This document shows positions 9,863-56,322 of a DNA stretch of 63,663 bases, piece after piece. Source of the DNA: a virus. Made by a program: the position numbers and the translations under genes. The stretch lies in the IMG/VR virus record IMGVR_UViG_3300047471_000403, positions 1-63,663 of that record, one strand, 5' to 3'. Position 1 is the first letter of the stretch; each line of letters starts with the position of its first letter. A model generated the notes under the pieces. The model was not told the DNA's origin and made no database searches. It was given only the letters and a program-made list of their open reading frames with translations.

Positions 9863-10249
9863 ATGAGAAGTTCATCAACCGGCGAGATGGGTCAGCAGCA
9901 AGCCGAGGCGTTCGGCAAGCGGCTGGCCCGTCACCGGCCCTACTACGAGAAATACGATCGAGGGTCCGACTGGATCATGCGGTGCAAGGACTGCGGCCGG
10001 ATCGTGACCCACACGCAACTCTTCGGCGACGGGAAGGAAGGCACGACCCCGTGCTGCGGCACCCGGTCACTGCGCGAGATCCGCGTCCTGAGCGTCTGGG
10101 AATGGATCAAGGTGCGCCTGGGCATCATTGACTTCCCGCACCGGGACGAGTTCCTGCAAGAGTTCGGCTTTCCGCTGTTCGGGTTCAAGGTCCGGCCACC
10201 CGGCACCGCCGCGGACGAGCGGATGATCGGAGGCGACGATGTTCGGTAA
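9863..10249 (+). CDS. Zinc-ribbon hypothetical protein (128 aa)
   Basis: Start ATG 9863 after AAGGAGCGCGGCC. Residues about 40-70 contain CKDCG and, 22 residues later, CCG, consistent with a zinc ribbon. The C-terminal half is aromatic-rich (VWEWIKVRLGIIDFP, FPLFGFKV). Unknown function. The stop overlaps the start of the glycosyltransferase-methyltransferase gene by eleven bases. Confidence 0.72.
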   Translation: MRSSSTGEMGQQQAEAFGKRLARHRPYYEKYDRGSDWIMRCKDCGRIVTHTQLFGDGKEGTTPCCGTRSLREIRVLSVWEWIKVRLGIIDFPHRDEFLQEFGFPLFGFKVRPPGTAADERMIGGDDVR

Positions 10250-11702
10250 GAAGCGCGCCGACAGCGCCGACCCTCGACGACCGCTTATTCTCGTGGGCAT
10301 CCCCTGCTACGGGCCGGTGCCACCCAAGATCCTCGAGGAATACATGCGGTTCGCGTTCCACCTGGGACGCCGGTTGCCGCAGTTCGACTTCAAGCTCGGT
10401 GTTCGGAGCAAGAGCGAACAGTTCCGGGCCCGGCATCACCTGGCGGAGTGGTCGATCAAACTCGGCGCCGACTATTTACTGATGATCGACGACGACATGA
10501 TCTTCAACGTGCTGAACACCCAGGGCGCGACCGACGCGTACGGGTTCGTCGAGAAGCTCGTGGCGCACGACAAAGATATCTGCGGGGTCCTGTACTACCA
10601 GAAGGAAGGCGCCTGCGCGCCGGTCCTGATGACCCAAACCACGGAGCGCGGCTATCGGTTCCTCCGAGACGAGGAAATTGAGCACACGCTACAAAAGGTC
10701 GACGTGGCCGGCGGCGGGTGCCTCCTGGTCAAGATGAAGGTGTTTGAGCACCTGTCGTATCCGTACTTCGGGCCCGAGTTCGAGTGGGGCACCGACGTGC
10801 AGCTATGTCGGAAGGCTGCTGAAAAAGGCTACGAGACGTGGGCGGACACCTCGATCGAGTTCGCCCACCTCAAGGTCGAACAAGCGGAAGTTTCGAGCCG
10901 GAACCGGCACCAATTCCAGGTGGAGGACCAGATCCCCGGCGAGTACAAAACCCAGTTCATCACGGCGGCCGTGTACGACGACCTGGTGAAAGACGCGCTG
11001 CTCTGGACCGGCTACACCGACTACGACGAGATGATGACCTACTCCCAACAGTTCCATCAGCATTGGGACACGCATCGCGCGGCCGGTGGGACTGACGCGG
11101 AGTGGTATCGCCTTTTTCCGAAAGAGCGAGTCGCGCGGCAGGTCTGGTTCAACACGCAGTCGCGCGACAAGCGGAAGGCCACGGAGTTCATTCTGAACAC
11201 GGTGAACCACAGCAGCCCGAAGGACATTCTCGACTTCGGCTGCGGCATCGGCATTCCGGCGTTCTACTTTGCGATGAAGGGCCACCGCGTGATGGCGGCC
11301 GACATCGAAGGGACGGGCACGCTCGAGTTCCTGAAGTGGCGGGCGAAGCAACATCACGTCCCGCTGTCGTTCTACGAGTCGCGTGGCGGGGTGCCGGCAT
11401 TCGGTGACCGGATGTTCGACATCGTCGTGGCGATGGACGTGCTCGAGCACCTCCCGGATGGGGAGTGGCAGATCGCGCTGTACGAAATTGCCCGGCGCAT
11501 CCGGCCCGGTGGCGTGTTGTTTGCCAACAACGCCGTACTGGATGACCCGAACCACGCGGAACACTATTGGGCCGACCGCGCGAAGTTCGTCGCGGAATGC
11601 ATGAAGGTCGGGCTGATGCCGTTCAACCAAGTCTGCTACACGAAGGCGGATCTGACGCAGGCGGCGCCGTCGTCGCTGGAGGACAAGCTGGCCCATGCCT
11701 AA
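10239..11702 (+). CDS. Bifunctional glycosyltransferase-SAM methyltransferase (487 aa)
   Basis: Residues 15-215 resemble a GT-A family glycosyltransferase: VGIPCYGPV at the N-terminus, the metal-binding DxD at residues 84-86 (MIDDDMIF) and VAGGGCLLVK near residue 156. Residues about 315-470 are a class I methyltransferase: motif I DFGCGIGIPAF at 332, acidic ADIEG end of strand 2, DVLEHLPDG near 400 and RIRPGGVLFANN. Expected to transfer a sugar from a nucleotide donor and a methyl group from S-adenosylmethionine. The acceptor is unknown. Its position among head genes suggests virion-protein glycosylation, or alternatively modification of host surface or DNA. Confidence 0.82.
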   Translation: MFGKKRADSADPRRPLILVGIPCYGPVPPKILEEYMRFAFHLGRRLPQFDFKLGVRSKSEQFRARHHLAEWSIKLGADYLLMIDDDMIFNVLNTQGATDAYGFVEKLVAHDKDICGVLYYQKEGACAPVLMTQTTERGYRFLRDEEIEHTLQKVDVAGGGCLLVKMKVFEHLSYPYFGPEFEWGTDVQLCRKAAEKGYETWADTSIEFAHLKVEQAEVSSRNRHQFQVEDQIPGEYKTQFITAAVYDDLVKDALLWTGYTDYDEMMTYSQQFHQHWDTHRAAGGTDAEWYRLFPKERVARQVWFNTQSRDKRKATEFILNTVNHSSPKDILDFGCGIGIPAFYFAMKGHRVMAADIEGTGTLEFLKWRAKQHHVPLSFYESRGGVPAFGDRMFDIVVAMDVLEHLPDGEWQIALYEIARRIRPGGVLFANNAVLDDPNHAEHYWADRAKFVAECMKVGLMPFNQVCYTKADLTQAAPSSLEDKLAHA

Positions 11703-28374: not shown

Positions 28375-31300
28375 ATGCCGGACCCGCAGATCGGCGTCGC
28401 GTCCGTCGAGGACATCCCGGAGCTGGTCGACTATCGCGCGTTCGCCCGGAGCGCAGCGACAGCGGCCGGTGTGGACCCGGACCTTGTCCATCGGTTGATC
28501 GACGCCGAGTCGAGCTGGAACCCGCACGCCAAGTCACCGAAGGGCGCGATCGGGCTGATGCAGCTCATGCCGGACACGGCAGCCGGCTTGGGCGTCGACC
28601 CGGAGGATCCGAAACAGAACATCCGCGGCGGCATCGGCTACCTCGCGTCGCTGATCGAGCACTTTGGGGGGGACACTCGTAAGGCCGTGGCGGCGTACAA
28701 CGCCGGCCCCGACGCCGTCGCACGCTATGGCGGGGTGCCCCCCTACAAAGAGACGCAGGACTACGTCGACAAGGTCGTGGGCGCCGGCATCGCCTCGTCG
28801 GAGGACATCCCGGTCGGCGCGCAGCAGGGCATTGCGTCGGTTGAGCCGATCCCTGGCTTCAAACCGCCGGTGGTCGCGGCGTCGGCCCTGCCGATGCCGG
28901 AAACCGAGAAGGTGAACGGCGTTCCGACGTGGAACGCGCTGCGGGCGATGCTCAAGACGGACCCGCAGAACCCGACCATCAGCAGCGGCCCTCCGGGGCT
29001 CGTAGAGGCCATTCAGAGCGGCGCGGACGACAACACGCTCGACACCTTGTCGCGCTTCTACGCGGCGGCTGGGCAGCAATTCAAGCCCACGCCGAGTGCG
29101 ATCCCGCCCCCGCCTGGCGAACTACCGGGCCAGATCCCGTCCCTGCGCGATGTCGCGCGCTCCGGGCTGCACCTCGCCGAAGATGTGGCGAGCCCCGTGA
29201 CACGGATGGTCAAAGGGGCGGCGACGCTGTCGCAGGTGCCGGCGGACGCGGAAACGCTCCAACCCGTCGAGGGCGGCAAGCAGCTCACCGGCACCGAAGC
29301 GATGCACGCGGCCAACGAGTTGGTCGAGGGGTTCTTTCAGGTCACGACCCCGCTCATCGGGGCGGCGGCCGTCGACAACCCGGTACCGATCGCCAAGGGC
29401 GTGCTGCAGGCGTGGTTGGCGCAGAAGGTCGGGGAAAAGGCTGCGTCTGTCGTCACCGACTCGAAGGAAGGGCAGCGGCTCGCCGGCAACCTCGCGGCGC
29501 TGCTGTCGGGCATCACGTCGGTCCACGACCTCGCCGTGGGCGCCGACAAGGCGACGTTCGACATTCAGGCGGGCGTGGCGGCCGTCCTGAAGAAAGCCGG
29601 CGAACAGGGTCGGTCTGCGGCGGTGGCGCTGAAGTTGAACCTCGGCACGCCGGAGCAGGCGACCTCACTCGCATCGGGCGGTTACAGCCAGAGCGCCCCG
29701 TATCCGGGCTACCGGGGTGCCCCGTTCGTCGACGAGGCGACCGCCAGGGCGTCGGAGGTGCCGCCGTCGGCGTCGGCGCTGCAGCTCGAGGAAGAGATCC
29801 GGGCGGAGGATCGCGCGCGCGCGGAGGCGGCTGCCGCCAGTCGGGCCGAAACAGCGGCTCCCGCTCCACCCACGTCCACACCGCTCCCGGCCGAGTTTGG
29901 TCCTGGGGCGTTTGCCGGACCCGTCATTCCGGGCGCGCAGGGCTCGAGGACCCCGGAGCAGCAGGCGCTGTACGAGAAGGCGCTCGCGAAGGGCGAACAG
30001 CCGCCAGAGAACCTCGGCGCATCGATCTCGACGGAAGCGCGGCCGCGCGGTGGGGAACCGATCGCTCAGGAGTCCTTCGTCGTCAATTTTGGAGATGGTA
30101 AAACGATCAACGTCGGGTCACTGGACGCTGCGGTCGAAGCGCACAACTCCGCCCGCGATGCGTTCGAAGACCACGTCGGACCAGGGGCTTCAGACCTGTG
30201 GCCTGTCGTTACGGCAACGAACCAGAACACCTGGCAGACGTATCGCATCCACTACAACGGCAGGCTGGAAGAACTTACAAGGCCTGGCATCGCCAGCGTG
30301 GAGGACATCCCGGAGCCCGTCAGCGGCACCGCGGGCGTGCCGAAGGGCGACTTTAAGACGAGTCCGCAGAACGAGAACGCGCCGTTCACCTACAACCTTG
30401 AGGGCTGGAAGCACGAACAGATCACGATGGGCGCGTCGCAGGACGAGGTCGACGAGGCCGTGAAGCAGGCGACCGAAGCCGGCATCGACCCGACGAACAG
30501 CGACGACCTGAACGACCTCGAGCACTTTATGAACGCGGTCGAGCAGGACGAGGACACCCGAAAAGAGCAAACCGATCTCGGCCATGTCGCGCACCCGGCG
30601 ATCCTTGAGTGGGCCAAGCAGCAGGCGGAACCGAAGGCCGCACTGTCAAGCGAAGCACCCCCTGAAGCCACGACAGAGTTCAAGCCGAACCACCTGTCGG
30701 CGACCGAACGCGAGCGATGGTCGGCGCTCATCAAGAAGGACAACAAGGGTAAGGCCACCGACGCGGAAAAGACCGAACTCGACGCGCTCACAAAGCGTGG
30801 GACCGACGACGCGTACCTCGCCTACCTCGAGTCGCATGACGACGAGCGGTTGCGGAGGGCGCTTGCGGAGAACCGCTCGCCAAGTAACAAGTCGCGGCAG
30901 ATCGGCCTGCCGTCCATTTACAAGCACGAGCAGATGATCCTCTACGTGATGCGCCAGCGTGGCATCACGCCAGAGGGCGAGCCGACCGCGGCCACCGCCA
31001 AACCTGAAAAGAAGCCCGTCACGCCGCAGCTCCCGCCGGCCGGTGGCGGGACGAAGTACGTGCTGCCGGACTTCGCCAGCACGCCAGGACAGCGTAAACC
31101 GGCGAAAGGGACGCTGCCGGAGACGACACCTGAGAACATCGCCGCCGTGGAGCGCGCGGTCGACGCAGCCACCCACGTCAGCGCGATGCAGGCGTCAGCC
31201 TCAGAGTTTTCACCGTTCAAGGAACTGGGCGACACGCAGCGGTACAGCATTAAGCTGAATTTGAAGAACGCCAGCAGCGTGCCTGGGATCACGAAGAAAA

Positions 31301-34300
31301 CGCACTGGCACATCGAGCAGGTCAACCAAGAGGGCGATGTCGTCGAAGTCCACGCGCGGACGTACGACATTAAGAGCGGGCAGCCGGTCGCGCGGACGGC
31401 GTCGATCTACCGCTTTAAGGTGCCGGCGGACTTCGTGTTGCACGCCCCAGGCATCGCGTCGGTGGAAGAGATCCCGGAAGGAGAAGGCAATGAACAACGT
31501 CCTGTGGCGGGAGGGGGAGAAACTCGACCCGGTGTCGCCACAAAACCCACTGGTGGGGCTCGAACAGCAGGTGTTGAAGGTGTGGGTGGAGAACAGCCCG
31601 CGTCTACGGAAACGGTGGCACCGGGACCCGAAAAGCCGGCAAGTACTGGAAAACGCGGTACGCCAAGCCGTCGAAAACCAAAGGGTGCAGGAGCTACAAC
31701 TGAGGGCGCAGGGCAAGAGCCTCGAGGAAGCGAAGGACCTGTCGACGCCGGGAATGTGGACACCGCCGACGTGGCCGACACAGAGGAAGAAGCCGACGCT
31801 CATGCGCGCGGGGAGGCTCCACGCTGGTTTAGCATCACGGCTGCATCGAGCCTCACGGAAGGCGGCTGGACCCAAAAGCTCGACGACAACCTCGCCGCCC
31901 TGAAGCTCCTGAAGCTGTTGCAGGCGGAAGGGCGGCCGGCGTCGGGCGAAGAACAGGCGGTGCTCGCGCGCTACGTCGGGTGGGGGCACACCGAACTCGC
32001 GTCGATCGTCGACCTGCGCGGCGGCGAGTCCCTCTCAGACCCGCGGAAGAAGCAGGCCCGGCAAGAGCTTGAACAGATCCTCACCAAAGCGGAGCTAAAG
32101 GAACTCGGCGAGTCGATCGCCAACGCGCACTATTCATTCTTCGAGCTGCCACGGGCGATGTGGGCGCTCGCGCAACGGCTCGGGTTTAAGGGCGGTTCCA
32201 TCCTCGAGCCAGCCGTTGGCAGCGGTCACTTCCTCGGCACCATGCCAGGGGAGCTACTGAACCAACGGCGCACTAAAGTCCACGCCGTCGACAAGGAACC
32301 GATCGCGTCCGGGATCGCGCGCCAGCTCTATCAGGGCGCGTACATTCAAACCTCGCCGCTCGAGGATGCGGTCATTCCCGACGACTACTTCGACCTGAAC
32401 ATCAGCAATGTGCCGTTCGGGAAGATCGGGATCTTCGATCCTCGAATGGCTGGCCCGGAGCACGCGGCCGTCACCAAGAGCGTTCATAACTACTACTTTG
32501 CCAAGGCGCTCATGGATGCGCGGCCCGGCGGGCTGATCCTCTTCGTCACCTCGCGCATGACGATGGATAGCCAGAGCGACGCGGTGCGGCGATACATCGA
32601 CCGGAGGGCCCGGTTCGTCGGGGCGATCCGGCTCTCGAGCCAAGCCTTTCAGAAAACCGCCGGCACCGAAGTCGTGACGGACGTGATCGTCCTGCAAAAG
32701 AAGGGGCCTGGTGTTGCGGCGACCTCGGAGGACTGGCTCACGTCGAACCAGCGCGAGGATCTTGGTAAAGTCTACGACCGCTACGAGAACGAGTACACGT
32801 GGGTCAACAGCAACGAGTACTTCGTTAAGCACCCGGAGCTGATCCTCGGCAAAGAGGACCGCTCCGGAAAGATGAACAAGCGGGCCAACGACTACAACGT
32901 CGTGGGACCCGTCACTGCCGAGATGCTGGCCGCAGCGGTCGCACGGTTCCCGGCCGACATCTACAAGCCGGCGAAGGCCGCCCCGCGCAAGGTTGCCACG
33001 AAGCAGGCGGCCGACACCCGCCAGGGCGCGTTCGTGCTTGAGGGCGGGAAACTCTACACGTTCGATCGCGGCACCCTGACGCCTACGAACCTGAAGGGCA
33101 AGTCGCTGGATCGGGCGAAGTCGTTCGTGCCGCTCCGTGACGCCTATCAGGCGGTCGTCGACCAAATGGTGCAGCACGCCGCCGATGAGGATCTGCGCGC
33201 GGCCCAAGCGACGCTGAAGAAGGCGTACGACACCTACGTCAAGAAGCACGGGCACCTGAATACCCGCGAGAACAAGCGCATCATCGACGCCGATCCCAAC
33301 GCGTCGCGCGTGCTGGCGCTCGAGAACGTCGACATCCTCAAAGGCGCGAAGGGCAAGCCGTCCACCATCGTCGTCACCGGGCTCGCGGACATCTTCAGTA
33401 AGCGGCTGATGAACCCACCGACGGAGCCGTCGGCGGCCGGCAGCCCGGCGGACGCCTTGGTGCAGAGCATTGCGTGGAAGGGCCGCGTCGACCTCGAGTA
33501 CATGAGCGGGCTCACCGGGAAGCCGGCCGCGGAGTTGACCGACGCACTCGAGGGAGAAGTCTTTCAGGACGTGGCAACGAAGGCATGGGTGGCGCGGGAC
33601 GAGTACCTGTCGGGCGATGTCGTCACGAAGCTCGCACAAGCACAGGCCGCGGCGAAAGCCGACAAAGCGTTCACCGGCAACGTCACGGCGCTCAAGGCGG
33701 TCCAGCCGACGCTCATCACGATCGACGACTTCAGCGGCGATCCCGCGGTGTCGCGCTCGGCGCCGTTCGGGGCCACGTGGGTGCCGCCCACGATGATCGA
33801 GTCGTTCTTGAACGCCAACGGCGGGTCCGTCGAGGTGCGGCTGGTCAACAGTAAGAGCCTGGTGACGTGGTATGTGGACGGCTACGGCAGCAGCGAGTTT
33901 CTGCCGCCCGGCGCAGGCTACGCCGAGTGGGTGCAGCAGTCCCTGAACGGCGAATTGCCGACCATTCGGACTAGGGACCCCGTCACCAAGTCGGAGGTGA
34001 TCGACCCGGCGGCGACCGAACGGTATCGGCAGTCGTTGGCGCAGCTCCGCGAACAGTGGGCGTCGTGGTGGAAGGGCGACCCGGACGCGAGCGAGCAGCT
34101 TGTAAACATCTACAACGCGATGTTCAACCGCGAAGTGGCCAGGTCGTTCGACGGCTCGCGGCTCGTGACGCCGAACAGCAACCCAGAGATCGTGCTCCGA
34201 GACGGCCAGAAGGACAGCGTCGTCGGTGCGATCCAACGCGGCAACACGCTGCTGGCACAAGCGGTTGGATGGGGCAAGACCTACGAGATGGTCGCGATCG

Positions 34301-37300
34301 CGGGCGAGTGGAAGCGCCTGGGGCTCTCGAACAAGCCGATGGTCGTGGTGCCGAACCATCTGACGGAGCAGTGGCGACGGGCGATCCAGTCGTTCTACCC
34401 GGCGCACCGCATCCTTGTCCCGGAGAAGGGCGACTTTGAGACTGGCAAGCGCAAGCGGCTCGTCGCGCGCATCGCCAACAACGACTGGGACGTGGTCGTG
34501 CTGGGAATGTCGCAGTTTCTGAAGGTCGCGGCGAAGCTCGAGTCGGTGCGGGCGTTCATTCAGGAGCAGGAAGATCAGCTTCTTCAGAGCGGAGCGGAAG
34601 AACTCGGGATCTCGGTCGAAGAGTTCAGCGACGCCGTCGAGTTGTACGGGAGCGACGACAAGGACGAACGCAAAGCCGGCGCGAAAGTTATCAGCGGGCG
34701 CGGCAAACCGCGCACAGCCAAGGACATCGCGCGCTCGATCTTGAACCTTCGCAAACGGCTGCGAAAGCGCACCGACCAGCAAGCCAAGGACCCGATCAAC
34801 TTTGAGGACCTCGGCGTCGACGGCCTGATCATCGACGAGGCCCACGACTACAAAAACCTCTATTTCTTCACGAAGAAGAACGATGTTGTCGGTTTGAAGG
34901 GCTCGGACTCCGACCGGGCGATGGATATGTACCTGAAGGTTCGGTACATCAACCAAGCCTCGAACAACCGCAACGTCGTGTTCGCGACCGGCACGCCCAT
35001 CACCAACACGATGAGCGAGTTGTTCACGATGTTCCGCTATTTGGCGCAGGACAGCCTCGACCGGCTGGGCATGGGCGGGTTCGACTCATGGGCGAACGCC
35101 TACGCAGAAGCGGTCGGCTCGATGGAGCCAGCGCCAGAGGGCGGCTACAAGGAGCGCAACCGCCTGTCGCAGTGGACGAACCTCGGCGAATTGTCGCGCA
35201 TGTTCAAGCGGTTCGCCGACGTGGTGACAACAGAGGACATTCTCAAAGAGAACGCCCGGCTTGAGGCGCTCGGCCAGCCGCCCCTCTTGAAGTTGCCGAA
35301 GGTGAAGAAGTTCACTATTCAGCTCGACCCGCACCCGGAGTTTGAAGAGTTCATGGAGGATCTCCGGGACCGCATTGCCCTGATCAAGAAGGGCGAGCCC
35401 CGCATCATCGGCTACAACAGCAAAGAAGATCGCAACATCATGGACGGGTTCCTCCCCGTCACGACCTCTGCGAGCTTGGCCGCGGTCGATATGCGGCTCG
35501 TGGCGCCGAACGCGGTCGACAACCCGCACGGGCGGATCCCCGTCGCGGCGCGCGAGATCCTGAAGCGGTACACCGCGTCGGCCGACATCCTCGGCACACA
35601 GATCGTGTTTCTCGACTCCGGGGTGCCGAAGAAGGGTCAGATCCCGCCGTTGCCGTCGGAATTCACGGACCCGGCGCCGCCGAGTGAAGAGGCGGACGAC
35701 ACCCCGGACGATGAGGACAGCGCCGACATCGTCGACCGCGAAGCTGAGGCCGAAAAGGAAATGGACGGCATCAACTCGCTGGCCTTCGATAAGGACCTTT
35801 ACGGCGAGCTCCGCAAGCTGCTCGTGGCCGGGGGCGTGAAGGATCACGAGATCGCCTACATCCATCAGGCGACGAACCCCAGCGAGCAACGCCGGCTGTT
35901 CGACGCGGTCAACAGCGGCAAGATCCGCGTGCTGCTGGCGAGTCGGTTTAAGGGCGGCACCGGCATGAACGTGCAGAAGCGCATCGTCGCGCTGCACCAC
36001 ATCGACGTGCCGTGGCGGCCCGATCAGCTCGAGCAGGCCGAAGGCCGGGCCGTCCGCCAGGGCAACGACAACGAGAGCGTCGACATCATTCGCTACGTCA
36101 CCAAGAAGTCGTTCGATGAGTACCGCTGGTATCTGCTGGCGAAGAAGCAAGGCTTCATCGCGGGGTTCTACCGCGGCGATGTCACGTCAATGGAGGACGT
36201 GGACACCACGCAGCTCGACATGCAGACGGCCGCGGCGCTCGCATCTGGCGATGAGCGCGTGATGCAGATGTTGCAGCTCGAGCGCGTGGTCCGTGGGATC
36301 GCGGCGCGGTCTGAGAACTTCCAGCGCCGACGCACCACGGCTGAACGTGAAGTCAAGCGAGCCGAAGAGGCGAACAAGACGCTCGAGCGCGACCTCACGG
36401 CTATGCGGTCGGTTGCCGGCCAGCTCCACACCTGGGGCGAGAAACCCACGGTGACGATCGCGGCCAAGATCGGGCGCTACGGCCAGGGGCTCGAGACTGA
36501 TCAAGGTCGGACCTACGACTTCCAAAGTACAGAGGACCGCAAAGCACTAAAGGAAGCGCTGATCCCGTTCCTCGAGCAAGAGGACTACTACGGCCGGCAG
36601 AGCCCCACGGTGGCAACGGCTGGCCCGTACGTCATCAAGCGCAACTACGTGACGCACGAACAGACGACGGAGATGGACGAGAACGGGAAGCAAACCGTCA
36701 TCGCCGGCCGTCACGCCGCCGTGCTGACCGTGTCGCTGCCATTGCCAGGGGGGAACGAAGTCATCATCGGTTCGTCGCCAGAGTGGGACGCGGACCACCA
36801 CCCGGACATCATTCGGAGCCTCGACAACCGGCTGGACCCAGGCTACGCGGACGACGCGATCCGCCGGTACGAGAAGTACATCAGGGAGAACAAGGGTAGT
36901 GTGGCCGCGGCGCGCACAGTGCTCGAGAAGCAGTTCGAGCAGGCCGATGAATTGGCCGCAAAGCAGAAGGAGTTGACCGACCTGCGCGTGGCGCTCGGCG
37001 TCGAGAAGGCGCAGTCGTCGGCAGCCAAGAAGGGACCTGAAGAGGAAGAACAGCACGAGATGCAGGTGCCGCAGGCGGTCGCGGCGCCGCTCCAACAGGC
37101 CGGCCAAACGCTCGCAGGCGCGCAGGCGGCCGTCCGCGCGACACTGACCGCCCCGGAAGTCAACCAGCCGTCGAGGCTCTCGGCCCGGATGCTGCGCCAG
37201 CGCGTCGCGCAGATGATCCACCTGATCGAGTACGCCCAGCACGCGCTGACGACCTATCGCAACAAGGTCGAGAAGCTGACCGTCGACCACGACGCGATCC

Positions 37301-40233
37301 TTGACCTCGCCGACGCCGTGGAGAACCCGCAGACCGGCCTGAAGGTCCCAAAGGACCTGCAGGGGTGGATCACGGTGCGCGACGAGGTGTACACGCACCT
37401 GAAGAAGCAGATCGCCGACCTGGGCATCGCGAAGCAGTGGCACGCGCACTACCTCGGCCACATTTGGGAGACGCAGTTTAAGCCAGGGAAACAGGGCGTG
37501 CTCGCCAGCATCATCGGCCGCAAGCCGTTGCAGGGGCCGAAGTCGTTCCTAAAGCAGCGCACCGTCCCGACGATGCGACAGGGCGTGAAGCGCGGGCTCG
37601 TGCCGAAAACGTGGAACCTCGTCGAAATTGACCTCTACAAGATGGAGGAAATGGCGAAGTTCATCATGGCGCACCAGTACCTGAACGACCTGAAGCGCGA
37701 GGGGCTCGCCAAGTTCCAGACGGCGCTGAAGAAAGCCCCGAAGGATATGACCGCGCTCCCGGACACGATGGGCGAGGTGTGGGCGCCGCCGCACATCACA
37801 GTCGCGGAGGCGTACGACAAGGTGTTAATGGAGGGGCTCGAGAACTACGTGCGGTCGCTCGGCGTGAAGTACGTGCGGAAACCGATGAGCGGCAAAACGT
37901 GGGGCTTCAGCGGCGCGACGAGCGGCGACATCACGATGGCGTTCGGCTCGCCAGAGTTCATGCTGATGCACGAACTCGGGCACACGCTCGACGCGCTCTA
38001 CGGCCTACATCAGCTCGTCCGACAGGGCGTGAAGAAGGCGATGTTCGAGGGGGAGAACTACCGGACGATCCTCAACGAGATGCGCGAGTTGGCGAAGCTG
38101 CGTTATGCCGGGCTCAAGGTCGACCCCGCCTACGAGAAGTACGTGCAGAAACCGACGGAGCGGATCGCGAACCTCGTCCATGCCTACCTGCACGCCCCGG
38201 AGTTGGCGAAGAAAGTGGCGCCGCACTGGTTCGACGCCTTCGACCACCTCGTGCTGTCGATGCCGGAGCTGGAACCGCTGATAGACCTTCAGCACATGCG
38301 GTCGCTGGTCATTGGGACGCGGGAAACCGAGAAAGCCCTACCGGGCCCGATCCTGCTCGGTCGCTACTACGTCGACCCGGCCGTGGCGCGGATCGTGAAG
38401 AACTATCTGACGCCGGGGCTCGGCGCCAACAAGCTGTGGGCGCTCGTTCGGGTGCCGGCGAACGCGCTGGTGCAGGCCAAGCTCGCGATCTCGGCGTTCC
38501 ACGCCTTCACCATCACGCAGGAGGCCGCGGCGCTCGAGGCGGGCCGCGGGATCACGGACGTGGCGCGCGGCCGGTTGAGTGGGGTGACACGTATCGCCAG
38601 GGCGCTCGCGGAGCCCGCGGCGGTCATTCGGCGGGGCCGTCGGGCCCGCTGGCAGTACCTGCACACGATGGACCCGATGTCACTGGCGGTCGACTCGGCG
38701 ACGAACCTGCTACTGGCCGGCGGCGGGCGCGTCAAACAAAGCCGGGAATTCGACAACCGCTCGATGCAGAAGTTCATGGATCATCTGCGACGGGCGAACG
38801 CGCAGTGGGCGCGGAAGCAAGCCGGGAAAGCCGGGGCGGAATACCTCGGGGCGGCGCTGCGGATCTTGCCGGCGGCCGTCGAAGCCGCCGCGTGGCCGAT
38901 CTTGGGCTGGCTCGTGCCGACGGCCAAAGCCGGTGCTGCGGAGTCCCAAATTCGCGCGGAGCTGGCCGGACTCAAAGGCGCCCCGACCGAACAGACACTG
39001 CTCGCCATCGCGTCGAAAGCCGTGAACCTCACCGACGCGACACTCGGCGAGGTCATTTGGGACAACTACTTTCTGCCGCGCGCGCTGATGTCGGCCGTCC
39101 ACATGCTGATCATGGCGCCTGGGTGGCGCGGCGGCTCGGCGATCATTCTGGCTCGAGGGCTGACTGATCCGGTACGACGGCTCGTGCCCGGTCAACGAGA
39201 GGAATACGAGGTCGTCGTGCCGGACACGACCGGACCCGTGCCACCCGGTACGCCCCCCAAGGTGCTGCCGGCGGGACAGGTCGCGCCGCAGGGCACGAAG
39301 ATCGTGAAGCAGAAAGAACGGTATTGGAGTCCCTACACGTCGCTGATGATCGCGACGGTGCTGGTGCAGGTGCTCGTGTCGGAGATCTTCCAGCAGATGC
39401 ACGGCGCCGGCCATGTGCACAGCCCGCTCGACGTGGCGTTCCCTCGCGACGGCGGCAAGGATGCGAACGGCAAGCCGACGCGCGTGCGGTTGCCCGGCTA
39501 CGCCGGCATCTTCTACGACATCGTCCGCGATATGCCGAAGTCCATTCTCGAGTACACGCTCGGCGGGACGGCCCCGATGCCGACGGCGGTGGGGCAGCTC
39601 TACGCGAACGAAACCATCTTTGGGGATGAAATAGCCGACAAGACGGACCCGTGGCGGGTGCAGTTGTGGGACTACGCAAAGTTTATGAAGGACCAGTTCG
39701 AGCCGATCTCCGTCTCGAGCTACGGGCGGCGGACGGGCACACCCTCAGAGAAGGCCGAGAGCGTGCTCGGCATTTCGCCAGCGCCCGCACGGGTGACACG
39801 CACGCCGCTCGAGGACTACCTGCACGGGTTGCAACCGCCCGCGCACCGGACGAAGGACCAAGCCGAGAAAGCGCAGGCGCGTCGAGACTTCAAGGTGGCG
39901 ACCCGCCAGGGCGATCCCGCGGCGGCGGCCGAAGCCGCTCGCGCAGGCGGCCTTTCCGCACGTTCGGTGATCGTGACGACGCGGAACCTGCTGTATCAGG
40001 GCCCGCAGCAGGCGTTCCAGGCCACGACGTTGCCGCAGGCCATTCGAGCCTACGAGATCGCGTCGCCAGAAGAACGGATCTTGATCCGGTCGCTCCTGCA
40101 ACGGAAGCAAGCGACGCAGATGGGGAGTATTCCCGTCGACCAACGGGCGGCCGTGTTCGCGCGGTACCAGAAGGCTCTACAATTACCCATCGGCCGAGAG
40201 CCGACTGCCGCCGCGGGCGCGCGAGGACGTTGA
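28375..40233 (+). CDS. Giant polyvalent protein: transglycosylase, N6 methylase, SF2 helicase, zincin peptidase (3952 aa)
   Basis: Visible domains in order: SLT lytic transglycosylase at residues about 20-137 (catalytic Glu45 in DAESSWNP; GLMQLMP 60-66); disordered linkers to about 1170; DarB-like adenine N6 methylase about 1170-1460 (ILEPAVGSGHF near 1276, SNVPFG at 1344); SF2 helicase about 1935-2610 (QAVGWGKT with Lys1968, IIDEAH at 2153, ATGTPITNT, QAEGRAVRQG near 2553); coiled-coil about 2610-2900; zinc metallopeptidase with HELGH at 3199-3203; C-terminal helical region with hydrophobic segments. Known relatives such as P1 DarB are packaged and injected to protect phage DNA from restriction. 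The transglycosylase suggests ejection through the cell wall. Five GIASVEDIPE-type motifs start at residues 7, 138, 152, 638 and 1026. Confidence 0.88.
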   Translation: MPDPQIGVASVEDIPELVDYRAFARSAATAAGVDPDLVHRLIDAESSWNPHAKSPKGAIGLMQLMPDTAAGLGVDPEDPKQNIRGGIGYLASLIEHFGGDTRKAVAAYNAGPDAVARYGGVPPYKETQDYVDKVVGAGIASSEDIPVGAQQGIASVEPIPGFKPPVVAASALPMPETEKVNGVPTWNALRAMLKTDPQNPTISSGPPGLVEAIQSGADDNTLDTLSRFYAAAGQQFKPTPSAIPPPPGELPGQIPSLRDVARSGLHLAEDVASPVTRMVKGAATLSQVPADAETLQPVEGGKQLTGTEAMHAANELVEGFFQVTTPLIGAAAVDNPVPIAKGVLQAWLAQKVGEKAASVVTDSKEGQRLAGNLAALLSGITSVHDLAVGADKATFDIQAGVAAVLKKAGEQGRSAAVALKLNLGTPEQATSLASGGYSQSAPYPGYRGAPFVDEATARASEVPPSASALQLEEEIRAEDRARAEAAAASRAETAAPAPPTSTPLPAEFGPGAFAGPVIPGAQGSRTPEQQALYEKALAKGEQPPENLGASISTEARPRGGEPIAQESFVVNFGDGKTINVGSLDAAVEAHNSARDAFEDHVGPGASDLWPVVTATNQNTWQTYRIHYNGRLEELTRPGIASVEDIPEPVSGTAGVPKGDFKTSPQNENAPFTYNLEGWKHEQITMGASQDEVDEAVKQATEAGIDPTNSDDLNDLEHFMNAVEQDEDTRKEQTDLGHVAHPAILEWAKQQAEPKAALSSEAPPEATTEFKPNHLSATERERWSALIKKDNKGKATDAEKTELDALTKRGTDDAYLAYLESHDDERLRRALAENRSPSNKSRQIGLPSIYKHEQMILYVMRQRGITPEGEPTAATAKPEKKPVTPQLPPAGGGTKYVLPDFASTPGQRKPAKGTLPETTPENIAAVERAVDAATHVSAMQASASEFSPFKELGDTQRYSIKLNLKNASSVPGITKKTHWHIEQVNQEGDVVEVHARTYDIKSGQPVARTASIYRFKVPADFVLHAPGIASVEEIPEGEGNEQRPVAGGGETRPGVATKPTGGARTAGVEGVGGEQPASTETVAPGPEKPASTGKRGTPSRRKPKGAGATTEGAGQEPRGSEGPVDAGNVDTADVADTEEEADAHARGEAPRWFSITAASSLTEGGWTQKLDDNLAALKLLKLLQAEGRPASGEEQAVLARYVGWGHTELASIVDLRGGESLSDPRKKQARQELEQILTKAELKELGESIANAHYSFFELPRAMWALAQRLGFKGGSILEPAVGSGHFLGTMPGELLNQRRTKVHAVDKEPIASGIARQLYQGAYIQTSPLEDAVIPDDYFDLNISNVPFGKIGIFDPRMAGPEHAAVTKSVHNYYFAKALMDARPGGLILFVTSRMTMDSQSDAVRRYIDRRARFVGAIRLSSQAFQKTAGTEVVTDVIVLQKKGPGVAATSEDWLTSNQREDLGKVYDRYENEYTWVNSNEYFVKHPELILGKEDRSGKMNKRANDYNVVGPVTAEMLAAAVARFPADIYKPAKAAPRKVATKQAADTRQGAFVLEGGKLYTFDRGTLTPTNLKGKSLDRAKSFVPLRDAYQAVVDQMVQHAADEDLRAAQATLKKAYDTYVKKHGHLNTRENKRIIDADPNASRVLALENVDILKGAKGKPSTIVVTGLADIFSKRLMNPPTEPSAAGSPADALVQSIAWKGRVDLEYMSGLTGKPAAELTDALEGEVFQDVATKAWVARDEYLSGDVVTKLAQAQAAAKADKAFTGNVTALKAVQPTLITIDDFSGDPAVSRSAPFGATWVPPTMIESFLNANGGSVEVRLVNSKSLVTWYVDGYGSSEFLPPGAGYAEWVQQSLNGELPTIRTRDPVTKSEVIDPAATERYRQSLAQLREQWASWWKGDPDASEQLVNIYNAMFNREVARSFDGSRLVTPNSNPEIVLRDGQKDSVVGAIQRGNTLLAQAVGWGKTYEMVAIAGEWKRLGLSNKPMVVVPNHLTEQWRRAIQSFYPAHRILVPEKGDFETGKRKRLVARIANNDWDVVVLGMSQFLKVAAKLESVRAFIQEQEDQLLQSGAEELGISVEEFSDAVELYGSDDKDERKAGAKVISGRGKPRTAKDIARSILNLRKRLRKRTDQQAKDPINFEDLGVDGLIIDEAHDYKNLYFFTKKNDVVGLKGSDSDRAMDMYLKVRYINQASNNRNVVFATGTPITNTMSELFTMFRYLAQDSLDRLGMGGFDSWANAYAEAVGSMEPAPEGGYKERNRLSQWTNLGELSRMFKRFADVVTTEDILKENARLEALGQPPLLKLPKVKKFTIQLDPHPEFEEFMEDLRDRIALIKKGEPRIIGYNSKEDRNIMDGFLPVTTSASLAAVDMRLVAPNAVDNPHGRIPVAAREILKRYTASADILGTQIVFLDSGVPKKGQIPPLPSEFTDPAPPSEEADDTPDDEDSADIVDREAEAEKEMDGINSLAFDKDLYGELRKLLVAGGVKDHEIAYIHQATNPSEQRRLFDAVNSGKIRVLLASRFKGGTGMNVQKRIVALHHIDVPWRPDQLEQAEGRAVRQGNDNESVDIIRYVTKKSFDEYRWYLLAKKQGFIAGFYRGDVTSMEDVDTTQLDMQTAAALASGDERVMQMLQLERVVRGIAARSENFQRRRTTAEREVKRAEEANKTLERDLTAMRSVAGQLHTWGEKPTVTIAAKIGRYGQGLETDQGRTYDFQSTEDRKALKEALIPFLEQEDYYGRQSPTVATAGPYVIKRNYVTHEQTTEMDENGKQTVIAGRHAAVLTVSLPLPGGNEVIIGSSPEWDADHHPDIIRSLDNRLDPGYADDAIRRYEKYIRENKGSVAAARTVLEKQFEQADELAAKQKELTDLRVALGVEKAQSSAAKKGPEEEEQHEMQVPQAVAAPLQQAGQTLAGAQAAVRATLTAPEVNQPSRLSARMLRQRVAQMIHLIEYAQHALTTYRNKVEKLTVDHDAILDLADAVENPQTGLKVPKDLQGWITVRDEVYTHLKKQIADLGIAKQWHAHYLGHIWETQFKPGKQGVLASIIGRKPLQGPKSFLKQRTVPTMRQGVKRGLVPKTWNLVEIDLYKMEEMAKFIMAHQYLNDLKREGLAKFQTALKKAPKDMTALPDTMGEVWAPPHITVAEAYDKVLMEGLENYVRSLGVKYVRKPMSGKTWGFSGATSGDITMAFGSPEFMLMHELGHTLDALYGLHQLVRQGVKKAMFEGENYRTILNEMRELAKLRYAGLKVDPAYEKYVQKPTERIANLVHAYLHAPELAKKVAPHWFDAFDHLVLSMPELEPLIDLQHMRSLVIGTRETEKALPGPILLGRYYVDPAVARIVKNYLTPGLGANKLWALVRVPANALVQAKLAISAFHAFTITQEAAALEAGRGITDVARGRLSGVTRIARALAEPAAVIRRGRRARWQYLHTMDPMSLAVDSATNLLLAGGGRVKQSREFDNRSMQKFMDHLRRANAQWARKQAGKAGAEYLGAALRILPAAVEAAAWPILGWLVPTAKAGAAESQIRAELAGLKGAPTEQTLLAIASKAVNLTDATLGEVIWDNYFLPRALMSAVHMLIMAPGWRGGSAIILARGLTDPVRRLVPGQREEYEVVVPDTTGPVPPGTPPKVLPAGQVAPQGTKIVKQKERYWSPYTSLMIATVLVQVLVSEIFQQMHGAGHVHSPLDVAFPRDGGKDANGKPTRVRLPGYAGIFYDIVRDMPKSILEYTLGGTAPMPTAVGQLYANETIFGDEIADKTDPWRVQLWDYAKFMKDQFEPISVSSYGRRTGTPSEKAESVLGISPAPARVTRTPLEDYLHGLQPPAHRTKDQAEKAQARRDFKVATRQGDPAAAAEAARAGGLSARSVIVTTRNLLYQGPQQAFQATTLPQAIRAYEIASPEERILIRSLLQRKQATQMGSIPVDQRAAVFARYQKALQLPIGREPTAAAGARGR
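31490..31903 (+). CDS. Probable overprinted gene inside the polyvalent gene (137 aa)
   Basis: A second frame with ATG 31490 preceded by AAGGAG at seven bases. Codon third positions are GC-rich in this frame from 31490 to about 31800, whereas in the main frame the same bases give a low-complexity G/A/E/T/P sequence with low third-position GC. The product begins MNNVLWREGEKLDPVSPQ and then has an amphipathic, ordered-looking helical stretch (LEQQVLKVWVENSPRLRKRW, VLENAVRQAVENQRVQELQL). The last 35 residues look like shadow. It may be a separate small protein or evidence that the giant gene arose by joining two genes across it. Unknown function. Confidence 0.5.
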   Translation: MNNVLWREGEKLDPVSPQNPLVGLEQQVLKVWVENSPRLRKRWHRDPKSRQVLENAVRQAVENQRVQELQLRAQGKSLEEAKDLSTPGMWTPPTWPTQRKKPTLMRAGRLHAGLASRLHRASRKAAGPKSSTTTSPP

Positions 40234-42308: not shown

Positions 42309-42695
42309 ATGAGCACACAAGTCGAGCAGGCGACGATCGAGCCCGTTCACGTGACGGTCGTGGGCGGCACCGGAGCCGGCGACTCGATGAAGCAGGAGAT
42401 CGTCACGCCGGCCGGACAACCGAACGTCATTGCGACGTTTATTCCGACGGCGACCGCGCTGCTGGTGCGCTGGATCGACACGTTCCTCACGACGTTTCTC
42501 GCTATTTCCGGTGTCGGGGCGGCGATCAGCATCGACGCGATCCGCAACCTTGTGCCGTCGCACACCGCGCTCGGCGGGGCGGTGATGGAAGAGGCCGTGT
42601 TCTACGCGTTCGTGACGGCGACGTTCTCGCTGCTAAAGGATCTGACGGTGATCGTGGGGCGGTTGAAGGCGAAGTTTCCGCTGTTGGATGTGTGA
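42309..42695 (+). CDS. Probable holin / membrane protein (128 aa)
   Basis: Residues 42-62 (FIPTATALLVRWIDTFLTTF) and 78-105 include two to three hydrophobic segments separated by short loops, with a basic C-terminus (GRLKAKFPLLDV). The length and layout resemble phage holin families. It is a stronger hydrophobic candidate than the 40236 protein but sits two genes downstream of the lysozyme. N-terminal 40 residues are polar. Confidence 0.55.
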   Translation: MSTQVEQATIEPVHVTVVGGTGAGDSMKQEIVTPAGQPNVIATFIPTATALLVRWIDTFLTTFLAISGVGAAISIDAIRNLVPSHTALGGAVMEEAVFYAFVTATFSLLKDLTVIVGRLKAKFPLLDV

Positions 42696-43502: not shown

Positions 43503-43531
43503 TTGACAAGTAGTCCGCTGTCGCCTTAGAC
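43503..43531 (+). promoter_or_regulatory. Sigma70-like promoter, cassette copy 1
   Basis: TTGACA (43503-43508), a 17-bp spacer and TTAGAC (43526-43531, followed by T). The downstream leader GGAGGATAAGG precedes the start at 43554. The same layout recurs at 47244 and 57912. It would drive the KTSC to HNH-like operon. Confidence 0.82.
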
Positions 43532-43553
43532 TCTCGCGTGGGAGGATAAGGCG

Positions 43554-43784
43554 ATGGCGGTCAACCACGCACCTGTTACCAGTTCGTTCATTGAGTCCGT
43601 CGGTCACGACGGCACCACCCTCGAAGTTAAAACCAAAGCCGGCAAGACCTACGTGTGCCACGACTGCACACCCGACGAGCACGCGAAGCTCATTGGGGCG
43701 GAGTCGATCGGGCGCGCGTGGAACCAGATGTTCAAGGGCCGGATGCGGCTCATTGCGGCGGAGGATCCCAACGATGTTGACTGA
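43554..43784 (+). CDS. KTSC-domain protein (76 aa)
   Basis: The product has the KTSC layout: SSFIESVGHDGTTLEVKTKAG, then YVCHDCTPDEHAKLIGAES and GRAWNQMFKG. KTSC is a small domain, often C-terminal to lysyl-tRNA synthetase or standalone, of unknown biochemical function. ATG 43554 has GGAGG twelve bases upstream within the promoter cassette. Confidence 0.78.
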   Translation: MAVNHAPVTSSFIESVGHDGTTLEVKTKAGKTYVCHDCTPDEHAKLIGAESIGRAWNQMFKGRMRLIAAEDPNDVD

Positions 43785-43995
43785 CGAGGACATCACGCGG
43801 CTCGTGAAGATCATCGAGAAAGCGGTCGAGGGCGAGATCAACTTTACCCGGCGCGACATTGAGGCGTTTGTGAAGGGCGAGGTTCAACAGCAACTCCGTG
43901 AAATTGTCGAGGGCACGGCCGGTCAAATGATCGCGAAGGTCGTCGCGGAAAAGGTCCACGAGGGGCTTGTCGTCCGGCTCGAGGTGAAGGCGTGA
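43774..43995 (+). CDS. Helical hypothetical protein (73 aa)
   Basis: ATG 43774 lies inside the end of the KTSC gene; the frame is open further left as shadow. The sequence is mostly amphipathic helix (DITRLVKIIEKAVEG, DIEAFVKGEVQQQLREIVEG) and may dimerise. No recognised motif. Coupled to the next gene at GTG 43992. Confidence 0.68.
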   Translation: MLTDEDITRLVKIIEKAVEGEINFTRRDIEAFVKGEVQQQLREIVEGTAGQMIAKVVAEKVHEGLVVRLEVKA

Positions 43996-44228
43996 AGAAA
44001 CTGACTAACCCCGGCGGTCGGCGGCAGCCGTCGATCTTCCTCGACAAGAGCACGTATCGCGTCCAGGGCGTGCTGACGAAACCGGGATCGGAGCGGTTCG
44101 AGGCGGCACGGGCACGACTGACACGGCTAGCGAAGTGGCCGCGGCCGGCCAGCGATGGCGACACGATCGAGTACCTCGCCCGCGGGCACTACGCCACGAA
44201 GCAGTATCTGAAGGAGCGCGCGGCATGA
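43992..44228 (+). CDS. Hypothetical protein (78 aa)
   Basis: GTG 43992 overlaps the previous stop. Basic protein with short strands; contains SIFLDKSTYRVQGVL and a C-terminal helix GHYATKQYLKERA. I do not recognise a family. Its gene sits just upstream of the Acb2-like gene in the same operon. Confidence 0.68.
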   Translation: MKKLTNPGGRRQPSIFLDKSTYRVQGVLTKPGSERFEAARARLTRLAKWPRPASDGDTIEYLARGHYATKQYLKERAA

Positions 44229-44446
44229 TCGACAAACCTTACGCGTACCACAAACCCAGTGACGACGGCCTTGAGAAGATCAACCGCCTGCGGGCGCACT
44301 TCTCGGAGGGCGAGCGGCTGATGCGGGAGATCTGCCCGCAGTCGCGGCAGCTCTCGGTTGCGTTGACCGAGAACGAAACGACCGCGATGTGGGCGATCAA
44401 GGCGGTCGTGTTCAACGACCCGGCGAGTGTGGTCGACCCGGCGTAG
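44225..44446 (+). CDS. Acb2/Tad1-hairpin family protein, putative anti-CBASS sponge (73 aa)
   Basis: A 73-residue helical hairpin protein. Residues 7-70 match the Acb2 signature: YHKPSDDGLEKINRLRAHF, then ICPQSRQLSVALTENETTAMW. The core pattern cP-x-SR-x-x-S-x-A-x-T-x-x-E-x-x-x-MWA is visible, with AMWAIKAVVFN at the C-terminus, where many homologues have A-N-A-A-I-A-R-N. Acb2 proteins bind cyclic di- and trinucleotide signals as oligomers and so blunt CBASS and related defences. ATG 44225 overlaps the previous stop. Binding activity here is inference. Confidence 0.72.
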   Translation: MIDKPYAYHKPSDDGLEKINRLRAHFSEGERLMREICPQSRQLSVALTENETTAMWAIKAVVFNDPASVVDPA

Positions 44447-44541
44447 TACAGAAAAACGGCCGGACACTGGCGAAGGTGTCCGGCCCAACAGCGGAGGAAC
44501 AGGTGCGAAGCAGCTCCTGTTATCCCGCAAATAGGGGTTCG
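44447..44541. other. Structured leader between Acb2-like and Rad52-like genes
   Basis: About 95 bases without a gene. A perfect 10-bp stem (GGCCGGACAC / GTGTCCGGCC, 44458-44467 and 44476-44485) follows an A5 tract, so on the minus strand it reads as a terminator hairpin plus T run. A smaller AACAGG/CCTGTT stem follows. On the plus strand it may act as an RNA leader for the recombinase. Confidence 0.55.
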
Positions 44542-45570
44542 ATGTCAAAAAAGCACGTCAAACACGCCCAAAAGAAGAAGCCTGAGAAGATCACGGCGCT
44601 CGCGCTGCGGCCGAAACCGCTCCCGCCCGCGCTGGTGCTCGCGCCCGGCTTGCCGTCGGGCCCGCTGCCGTCGGCCGTGCAGCTCGGCGAAGAGGCGGTG
44701 CTCGGCGCGCTCGGCGTGGCCGAGATCCGGCTCACCAAGAAGGAAGAGACGATCCTCGCGCGTCCCGTCGACGGGAAACTCGTCCTCATCAAGCCGTCGG
44801 GCCAGCCGTATTTGAGTCACCCGGCGTACACCCGTTGGTTCAATGACGCCTTCGGGCGTCTCGGCTGGTCGATCGTCCCGGTCGGCAAGGCCCAATACAA
44901 CGGCAAGACCGTGGTGATGCCGCACATGCTCTACATCCACCGGACGCCCGCGGCGTTCGCCTACGGGGAGCAGGAGTACTACGAGAAGAACCGGGAGCAG
45001 AGCTACGGCGACGCGATCGAAGCCTGCACGGCGTCGGCACTGCGGCGCTGTGCCAAGCGGCTCGGGGTCGGGCTCGAGCTGTGGGATCGGGACTGGCTGA
45101 ATGCGTGGATGGTGAACAACGCCGTACGCGTAACGGTCAACGATCGCGGCGAGAGCAAGGAACGCTACCGACGGAAGCAGGACCCCCCACTCCGCGGCGA
45201 GATCGCCGTCCGCAAGGGCAAACAGCCGCAGGGCGCTCCGCCGGCCGGTGCCCCACCTGCGGCCACTGACTACCGGACCTTCGACGATCTCACGAACGCG
45301 ATCGACGCCGACTACCGGCACGAGGACGACGGCCCGAAGGAAGCGACGCACCCCAAAGAGAACGAGCCGATCGAGAAGGAGCAGATCAAGCGGTTTTGGG
45401 TGATCGCGCGCAAGACGAAGCGCACCGAAACCGAGATCCGCATGTGGCTGAAGGTCGTGTTCGGCTACGACAGCACGAGCCAGATCAAGCGCAAGGAGTA
45501 CAACACCATCATGCGAACGGTGGAGGCGCCGGGCCCGCTGCCGATGCGCGAGCCAGGGCAGGAGGGTTGA
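44542..45570 (+). CDS. Rad52-like single-strand annealing protein (342 aa)
   Basis: Expected to anneal complementary single strands during recombination-dependent replication. ATG 44542 is preceded by AGGGGTT. Residues about 90-200 carry the Rad52/MGM101-type core: YLSHPAYTRWFNDAFGRLGW, MLYIHRTPAAFAYGEQEY and the hallmark SYGDAIEACTASALRRCAKR then LGVGLELWDRDWL. The C-terminal 140 residues are charged and end with a small helical domain (KEQIKRFWVIARKTKRT). It is paired with a nuclease gene downstream, as in many phage recombination pairs. Confidence 0.85.
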   Translation: MSKKHVKHAQKKKPEKITALALRPKPLPPALVLAPGLPSGPLPSAVQLGEEAVLGALGVAEIRLTKKEETILARPVDGKLVLIKPSGQPYLSHPAYTRWFNDAFGRLGWSIVPVGKAQYNGKTVVMPHMLYIHRTPAAFAYGEQEYYEKNREQSYGDAIEACTASALRRCAKRLGVGLELWDRDWLNAWMVNNAVRVTVNDRGESKERYRRKQDPPLRGEIAVRKGKQPQGAPPAGAPPAATDYRTFDDLTNAIDADYRHEDDGPKEATHPKENEPIEKEQIKRFWVIARKTKRTETEIRMWLKVVFGYDSTSQIKRKEYNTIMRTVEAPGPLPMREPGQEG

Positions 45571-54810: not shown

Positions 54811-55378
54811 TCCAGAGGCGTACGACGCGTACCGCGCGCAGCAGATGGCGAAGTCTGAGGTGTGGGACTCTCAGCAGGTCGCCAAGCTGCGCGCGTTCGG
54901 CGTCGACGACCTCGAGTACCTCATCGGCCGCGATCTTCAGTTCCGTCACGGTGACACGAACCGTGGGCTCGAGCTGAAGCACGACGAGGGGCTCGTCATT
55001 CACGGCAACCTCTATATCGAATACAACGAGCTGACGCGGGACGGGCGCGAGTTCGTGCCGTCCGGCATCTATTGCGCCGCCGACTGGCAGTGGTACGGCA
55101 TCGGCGACGATCGGCAATTCTTCGTGTTCCAGCGCGAGCGGTTGCACGAGGCGCACGGCATCATCGAGGACGGGCGACCGCTATACAAGCGGGTGCTCAA
55201 TAAGTACAAGAGCGGGCACGGCTTCCTGTTGCCACAAGGCGACGCCTTCTTTCACTACGAGGCTTTCTATTTTCCGATGTGGGATCACACCAAATGTCAA
55301 GACGCAGCACGCCGACTCTCGCAGACCCTGTGCGCCCCATTGTCCTTGGGCACTACACCCTTCACGAGACGGGAATAA
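54794..55378 (+). CDS. Hypothetical protein (194 aa)
   Basis: ATG 54794 overlaps the previous stop region. A mixed protein with aromatic-rich strands (GIYCAADWQWYGIGDDRQFF, FFHYEAFYFPMWDHTK). The last 28 residues overlap the methyltransferase gene in another phase and may be partly unconstrained. Not recognised. Confidence 0.6.
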   Translation: MQQRTDPEAYDAYRAQQMAKSEVWDSQQVAKLRAFGVDDLEYLIGRDLQFRHGDTNRGLELKHDEGLVIHGNLYIEYNELTRDGREFVPSGIYCAADWQWYGIGDDRQFFVFQRERLHEAHGIIEDGRPLYKRVLNKYKSGHGFLLPQGDAFFHYEAFYFPMWDHTKCQDAARRLSQTLCAPLSLGTTPFTRRE

Positions 55379-56322
55379 CCGTCACCGGCACACCGAAGTT
55401 CGCCGAACACGAGGGCGTCGGGCAGTTCATCGATCGCGCGGCGAAGGCGTCGCGGTGGTGGCGGGCCGACTGGATGCGCTACGGTGAAAGTCGCGGGGAC
55501 TGGCAGGACCGGATATCCCAAGTGTCCCATCACACCGGCCTGAGCGAAAAGACGCTGAAGAACGAGCGCGCCGTCGCGGCGATCGAGGGCTCGCGGCGGC
55601 GCACCGACGTGGAGTTTGAGCTTCATGCCGCGGTCGCGGGCCTGCCGGCGAAGGAGCAAAGCTACTGGCTCGAAGAAGTGGCCAGCCACGGGTGGGGGCT
55701 CCGGGAACTGCGGCTCGAGCTGCGCGCGGCCAAGCGGCGCCGCATCATCGAAGGGCAAGCGACGTTACTCGGGCAGTACCGGGTGTTTTTGTGCGACTAT
55801 CCGTGGCTCTACAATAACCGGCCGCCGTCGGGCAGCGGGCAAAAGGACCACTATCCGGGGATGACGATCGAGGACGGCTGCAAGCTCCCCGTCGAGGCAC
55901 ACGCGGCCAAAAACGCCGTGATGTTCTTTTGGGTGACGGCGCCGTTCCTCTACTACGCCAGCGACGGCATCACGCCGGACCCGTACCGCATCCTCACCGC
56001 CTGGGGCTTCACGGCGAAAACGGGGATGGTGTGGGACAAAGTCGACAACGCCTTCGGGAACTACGTGTCGATCCGGCACGAGCATCTCCTGATCTGCACG
56101 CGTGGGAGCTGCACACCGGATCGCCCGACACCGATGTTCGACTCGGTGTTCACGGAACGGCAAACATCGGAGCATAGCGGCAAGCCGGAGAGCGTCCGAC
56201 AGATGATCGAGCGGCTGTACGACGGGCCGTACTGCGAGCTGTTCGGGCGCGAGCGGCACGAGGGGTGGGACGTGTTCGGAAACGATGCGCGGCTGTGGGC
56301 CGAACAGAAAGTGAGCGCGTGA
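55294..56322 (+). CDS. MT-A70-family adenine methyltransferase with HTH-like N-terminus (342 aa)
   Basis: Transfers methyl from SAM to adenine N6. ATG 55294 chosen; GTG 55279 is possible. Residues 60-125 are ParB/HTH-like (QVSHHTGLSEKTLKNERAVA, HGWGLRELRLELRAAKRRR). The catalytic domain begins with FLCDYPWLYNN: DYPW (168-171) replaces the usual DPPW. Later VMFFWVTAPFLYYASDG, TAWGFTAKTGMVWDK and SIRHEHLLICTRG fit the family. It may protect phage DNA from restriction. The atypical tyrosine may affect activity. Confidence 0.8.
   Translation: MSRRSTPTLADPVRPIVLGHYTLHETGITVTGTPKFAEHEGVGQFIDRAAKASRWWRADWMRYGESRGDWQDRISQVSHHTGLSEKTLKNERAVAAIEGSRRRTDVEFELHAAVAGLPAKEQSYWLEEVASHGWGLRELRLELRAAKRRRIIEGQATLLGQYRVFLCDYPWLYNNRPPSGSGQKDHYPGMTIEDGCKLPVEAHAAKNAVMFFWVTAPFLYYASDGITPDPYRILTAWGFTAKTGMVWDKVDNAFGNYVSIRHEHLLICTRGSCTPDRPTPMFDSVFTERQTSEHSGKPESVRQMIERLYDGPYCELFGRERHEGWDVFGNDARLWAEQKVSA

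Follow-up and report, generated by a model that had tools for sequence, protein, structure and literature searches.

Genomic organization of the small-gene cluster

The virus record IMGVR_UViG_3300047471_000403, analyzed here over its whole stretch of 63,663 nucleotides (the window), harbors a cluster of small open reading frames (ORFs), which is preceded by a promoter-like site and followed by the gene of a single-strand annealing protein. The features of the region are as follows:

43503..43532 (+), sigma-70-type promoter-like site TTGACA-18-TAGACT, 5' of the small-gene cluster (match to the consensus only)
43554..43784 (+), 76-aa KTSC-domain protein, first ORF past the promoter-like site (PF13619, E=9.7e-7, 28.9 bits against a cut-off of 25)
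43774..43995 (+), 73-aa small ORF with no confident family (nothing above the Pfam cut-off; PHROG 19738 reached just E=0.003)
43992..44228 (+), 78-aa small ORF whose end overlaps the start codon of the hairpin gene (no family match in Pfam or PHROG)
44225..44446 (+), 73-aa Acb2/Tad1-hairpin protein, putative nucleotide sponge (profile and structure comparisons)
44542..45570 (+), Mgm101-type single-strand annealing protein, next gene downstream (PF06420, E=5e-29)

The original prediction had located a protein of 73 residues at 44225–44446 within an early operon. The ORF was confirmed on the plus strand, running from ATG to TAG, with the sequence GAAGGAG 8 nt 5' of the ATG and its start overlapping the stop of the preceding ORF as ATGA. 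The early-operon context also held as anatomy, as the promoter-like site is followed by the KTSC protein, two small ORFs, the hairpin gene and the annealase, with a helicase further on. The promoter-like site was the sole such match on both strands between positions 42500 and 47000, and was found once as against 0.5 expected in shuffled sequences. The small-gene cluster is presumably expressed early. The proposal that the neighboring small genes might be further counter-defense was not borne out, as one codes for the KTSC-domain protein and the others belong to no confident family. A perfect 10-bp hairpin (GGCCGGACAC...GTGTCCGGCC) was observed directly 3' of the 73-aa gene at 44458–44485; it is terminator-like solely when read on the minus strand, and no gene is apparent there.

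A GH108-type endolysin is encoded upstream of the cluster at 40.4 kb. A terminase small subunit is encoded at 60.4 kb. A giant polyvalent protein of 3952 aa is encoded by a single ORF at 28375–40233 (+) and combines an SLT transglycosylase domain at its N-terminus with an SNF2-type helicase (PF00176, PF00271). A 487-aa ORF at 10239–11702 (+), preceding both the lysis region and the early region, carries a C-terminal methyltransferase domain (PF08241), and an MT-A70 adenine methyltransferase encoded at 55279–56322 (+) could possibly modify the DNA against restriction. The search of the window for further sponges revealed no match to the Tad2 family; the Acb4 search gave no match either, but as its control was silent everywhere this result does not speak for absence.

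Sequence analysis and family assignment

The stretch ICPQSRQLSVALTENETTAMW, quoted in the original prediction as the helical-hairpin pattern of Acb2, corresponds to residues 36–56 of the 73-aa protein. The Pfam profile PF24729 (Acb2/Tad1 hairpin) matched residues 7–61 with an E-value of 1.1e-12 and 48.3 bits (curated cut-off 27). The pattern is therefore beyond chance, but it belongs to the joint Acb2/Tad1 family rather than to Acb2 specifically, and hence alone neither separates Acb2 from Tad1 nor names the ligand. The same profile was found at E<=0.001 in all 37 aligned family sequences (the window protein and 36 relatives), and PHROG 1454, which is listed as of unknown function, matched most of the length of the protein (E=2.6e-9).

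Alignment of the window family by hhalign with a canonical Acb2 alignment (32 sequences, relatives of T4 Vs.4 and of PaMx33/PaP2 Acb2) gave 95% probability over 61 columns with a score of 42.8, while none of 100 column shuffles scored above 15.3 and the reversed alignment reached 12.0. Among the PDB sequences, the family profile retrieved ‘Acb2 homolog 43’ (9ptq) as the best match (E=0.009), followed by Vs.4 and two p26 entries, all of them weak. With a broader profile of seven sequences, 9ptq (1e-5), Vs.4 (0.006) and Tad1 (0.017) were ranked ahead of all others. Single-sequence phmmer comparison of the protein with the PDB gave nothing useful, Acb2 being reached by the family profile only. 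Sequence and structure comparisons independently give good support to placing the 73-aa protein in the Acb2/Tad1 hairpin family, and the identity proposed originally agreed with PF24729, hhalign, the PDB profile searches and the five top Foldseek matches. As judged from the sequence comparisons, homology to the validated Acb2 proteins (T4 Vs.4 and p26 of PaMx33/PaP2) holds directly.

Structure prediction

Tertiary structure prediction of the 73-aa protein using AlphaFold2 (pLDDT 88.9, pTM 0.73) confidently modeled a two-helix hairpin, with long antiparallel helices at residues 13–36 and 41–63. The short N-terminal helix of Acb2 was missing from the model. Comparison with solved structures, which had been proposed as a check of the Acb2 assignment, returned Vs.4/Acb2 structures at all of the ranks 1–5 in a Foldseek search of the PDB, with a probability of 0.99 and modest E-values (0.13–0.15) for the best two. 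VIA-align gave Z scores of 6.8 for Vs.4 and of 6.3 and 6.2 for Acb2, and unrelated helical hairpins reached equal Z; hence, the fold agrees with Acb2 but does not discriminate, and the case rests on the sequence profiles. The model showed 12 residues ahead of helix 1 and no N-terminal beta sheet. Identity with Tad1 was ruled out owing to the absence of the N-terminal beta domain of Tad1, and the protein is thus Acb2-like rather than Tad1-like.

Conservation of the ligand-pocket residues

Three codons of the hairpin gene correspond in the alignment to the following residues of validated Acb2 proteins:

44246..44248 (+), Y8, aligned with T4 Acb2 Y8 and PaMx33 Y11 of the cyclic-dinucleotide pocket; invariant in 37 sequences
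44291..44293 (+), R23, aligned with T4 K23 and PaMx33 K26 (basic, a conservative change); R in 37/37
44366..44368 (+), T48, aligned with T4 T68 and PaMx33 T74; invariant in 37 sequences

Together with R41, these residues were invariant in all 37 sequences. K26 and R67 of PaMx33 Acb2 are residues that we take to have a role in ligand binding. In T4 Acb2, cyclic-dinucleotide binding is disrupted by the Y8A substitution (PMC12657230, PMC12657218) and lowered by T68M (PMC12657230), and F82 makes a stacking contact with the ligand (PMC12657230, PMC12657218). The position of T4 F82 is occupied by V62 in the 73-aa protein, with the invariant F63 adjoining it, and by A88 in PaMx33, which indicates that this position varies among validated Acb2 proteins.

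Across the alignment, 26 of the 73 positions were invariant, although this conservation is somewhat inflated since the relatives had been retrieved by exact short stretches of the query or family alignment, which favors conserved members. Invariance was concentrated where both chain termini meet (18/25 positions versus 8/42 in the 37 sequences; Fisher p=2.5e-5), and a review places the ligand pocket of Acb2 at this end of the hairpin (PMC10419184). The subfamily also has invariant ends of its own, IDKPYAYHKPS and VVFNDPxS, unlike those of canonical Acb2.

Relatives, selection and apparent mobility of the hairpin gene

A first scan of viral contigs yielded 42 relatives and a second one 114, 80 of which were retained; the 36 aligned with the window protein showed 62–87% identity. 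The subfamily with the ends IDKPYAYHKPS...VVFNDPxS was found in more than 100 metagenomic virus contigs and in one apparent planctomycete prophage. Differences from the window across 81 loci numbered 1094, 902 and 3565 at codon positions 1, 2 and 3, respectively. As they fall mostly at third positions, the ORF codes for a real protein and is under purifying selection.

In the flanks of the 42 relatives of the first scan, no counterpart of any of 15 neighboring window proteins was detected. The other loci compared had no gene in common with the window beyond the hairpin gene, and most of them share genes among themselves; a gene of ∼548 aa, which on reading by eye is apparently a terminase large subunit, lies ∼2 kb downstream of the hairpin gene in 31/83 loci. 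The occurrence of the hairpin gene in many phages with no other common gene nearby suggests that it is mobile cargo that moves on its own.

A DNA-level search of named phages gave no match to the hairpin gene. At the protein level, the closest named relatives were Paenibacillus phage proteins, those listed having 33–38% identity; one such relative adjoins SSB and primase genes. The Paenibacillus phage relatives at L049:2989-3192 and L050:2989-3204 are annotated as ‘phosphomannomutase,’ apparently an erroneous label for a protein of the Acb2/Tad1-hairpin type. An ORF of a Deinococcus plasmid, near a terminase small subunit, was also identified as a relative. The chromosome of Limnoglobus roseus carries a relative with 54% identity (L052:4995-5219), which is closely followed downstream by terminase-like and phage-like genes, and the locus is apparently a planctomycete prophage. 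In this one cellular genome with a close relative, searches for the SMODS, TIR_2 and Cas10 families gave no match; SAVED and DncV searches of the same genome are uninformative, their controls having been silent.

Proposed function of the 73-aa protein

Members of the Acb2/Tad1 family bind differing cyclic di- and trinucleotides, and Acb2 itself is a homo-hexamer that binds such ligands without cleaving them. The 73-aa protein is probably an oligomeric sponge of the Acb2 type, sequestering a cyclic nucleotide with which a defense system signals alarm, and this is the most likely reading because the ligand residues Y8, basic residue 23 and T48 are kept. We infer that the hairpin protein would act in counter-defense by oligomerizing, as does the hexameric Acb2, and by tightly binding the alarm signal of the host without cutting it; with the signal sequestered, the effector would never be switched on and the infected cell would survive. 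From the history of the family, the most likely ligand would be a CBASS signal of the cyclic di- or trinucleotide type, a signal of a type III CRISPR, Thoeris or Panoptes-type system being possible but less likely. The designation ‘anti-CBASS’ is nevertheless less secure than ‘nucleotide sponge.’ Points against such a sponge are V62 at the position of T4 F82, a conservation of the subfamily that is unusually high for a counter-defense protein, the modest Foldseek E-values, VIA-align scores no better than those of unrelated helical hairpins, and the missing SMODS, TIR_2 and Cas10 matches in the L. roseus genome.

The loss of F82 also bears on which signal is bound. A sponge for a non-CBASS signal, i.e., a Thoeris ADP-ribose derivative, a cyclic oligoadenylate of type III CRISPR or an undescribed nucleotide, is possible though less likely; its mechanism would be the same and would overlap with the one above, only the defense being countered differing. 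The Pfam family unites Acb2 with Tad1, which binds gcADPR besides cyclic nucleotides (PMC12043709), and both the invariant ends peculiar to the subfamily and the failure to find SMODS in the single host genome searched point in the same direction. Against it stand the retained residues Y8, basic 23 and T48 of the Acb2 pocket and the absence of the Tad1 beta domain. A further step, by which the IDKPYAYHKPS...VVFNDPxS subfamily would be a sponge for a signal outside the known Acb2/Tad1 targets, belonging to an unrecognized signaling defense of uncultured hosts, is rather unlikely.

The vicinity of the Mgm101-type annealase, the SSB and primase genes beside the Paenibacillus phage relative, and the 26 invariant positions would also be consistent with a nucleotide binder in phage physiology, for example one that damps a housekeeping messenger of the host or aids the adjacent recombination and replication genes. 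The surroundings of the gene vary, however, with no window neighbor recurring in the flanks of the 42 relatives and a different gene, apparently the terminase, downstream in 31/83 loci, and such a role appears improbable. As two-helix hairpins are frequent and VIA-align scored many unrelated examples equally high, a small oligomeric adaptor or regulator having the fold but no ligand may be considered; it is the least probable of these explanations and quite doubtful, as the sequence profiles point specifically to Acb2/Tad1 and conservation is concentrated at the ligand end.

Taken alone, the 73-aa protein extends in an expected way a family whose wide distribution was known before. If it is a sponge, it would represent an Acb2-like branch in viruses of uncultured bacteria that is compact, strongly conserved and seemingly mobile, and its ligand would reveal a signaling defense used by those hosts. 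The protein is small, the residues to be mutated are clear and assays exist.

Comparison with known systems

Acb2 of the Pseudomonas phages PaMx33/PaP2 (p26; PDB 8h2j, 8h2x) shares with the 73-aa protein the two-helix hairpin and PF24729, and its residues Y11, K26, R67 and T74 are aligned with Y8, R23, R41 and T48. It differs in its low overall identity, in an inter-helix insert of ∼20 residues that is missing in the 73-aa protein, and in a C-terminal VAQPxxF in place of VVFNDPxS. The short loop is normal, as many canonical Acb2 relatives are only 73–75 aa long and lack most of this insert. T4 Vs.4 (Acb2; PDB 7uq2), the top Foldseek match, has in common Y8, the basic residue 23 (K/R), T68 (T48 in the 73-aa protein) and an MWA(C/I)(R/K)AV stretch, whereas its inter-helix loop is longer, F82 stands in place of V62, and R41 has no counterpart.

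‘Acb2 homolog 43’ (PDB 9ptq, 76 aa, six chains), the best match to the window family among solved sequences (E=1e-5, broader profile), is alike in its short-loop length and in the pattern R-x-x-S-x-x-x-T-x-x-E, but has F instead of M55 and W56 of the 73-aa protein. The hairpin domain is also common to Tad1 (PDB 7uav, 8kbe; E=0.017, profile positions 41–63), in which, unlike in the 73-aa protein, an N-terminal antiparallel beta sheet lies ahead of the hairpin.
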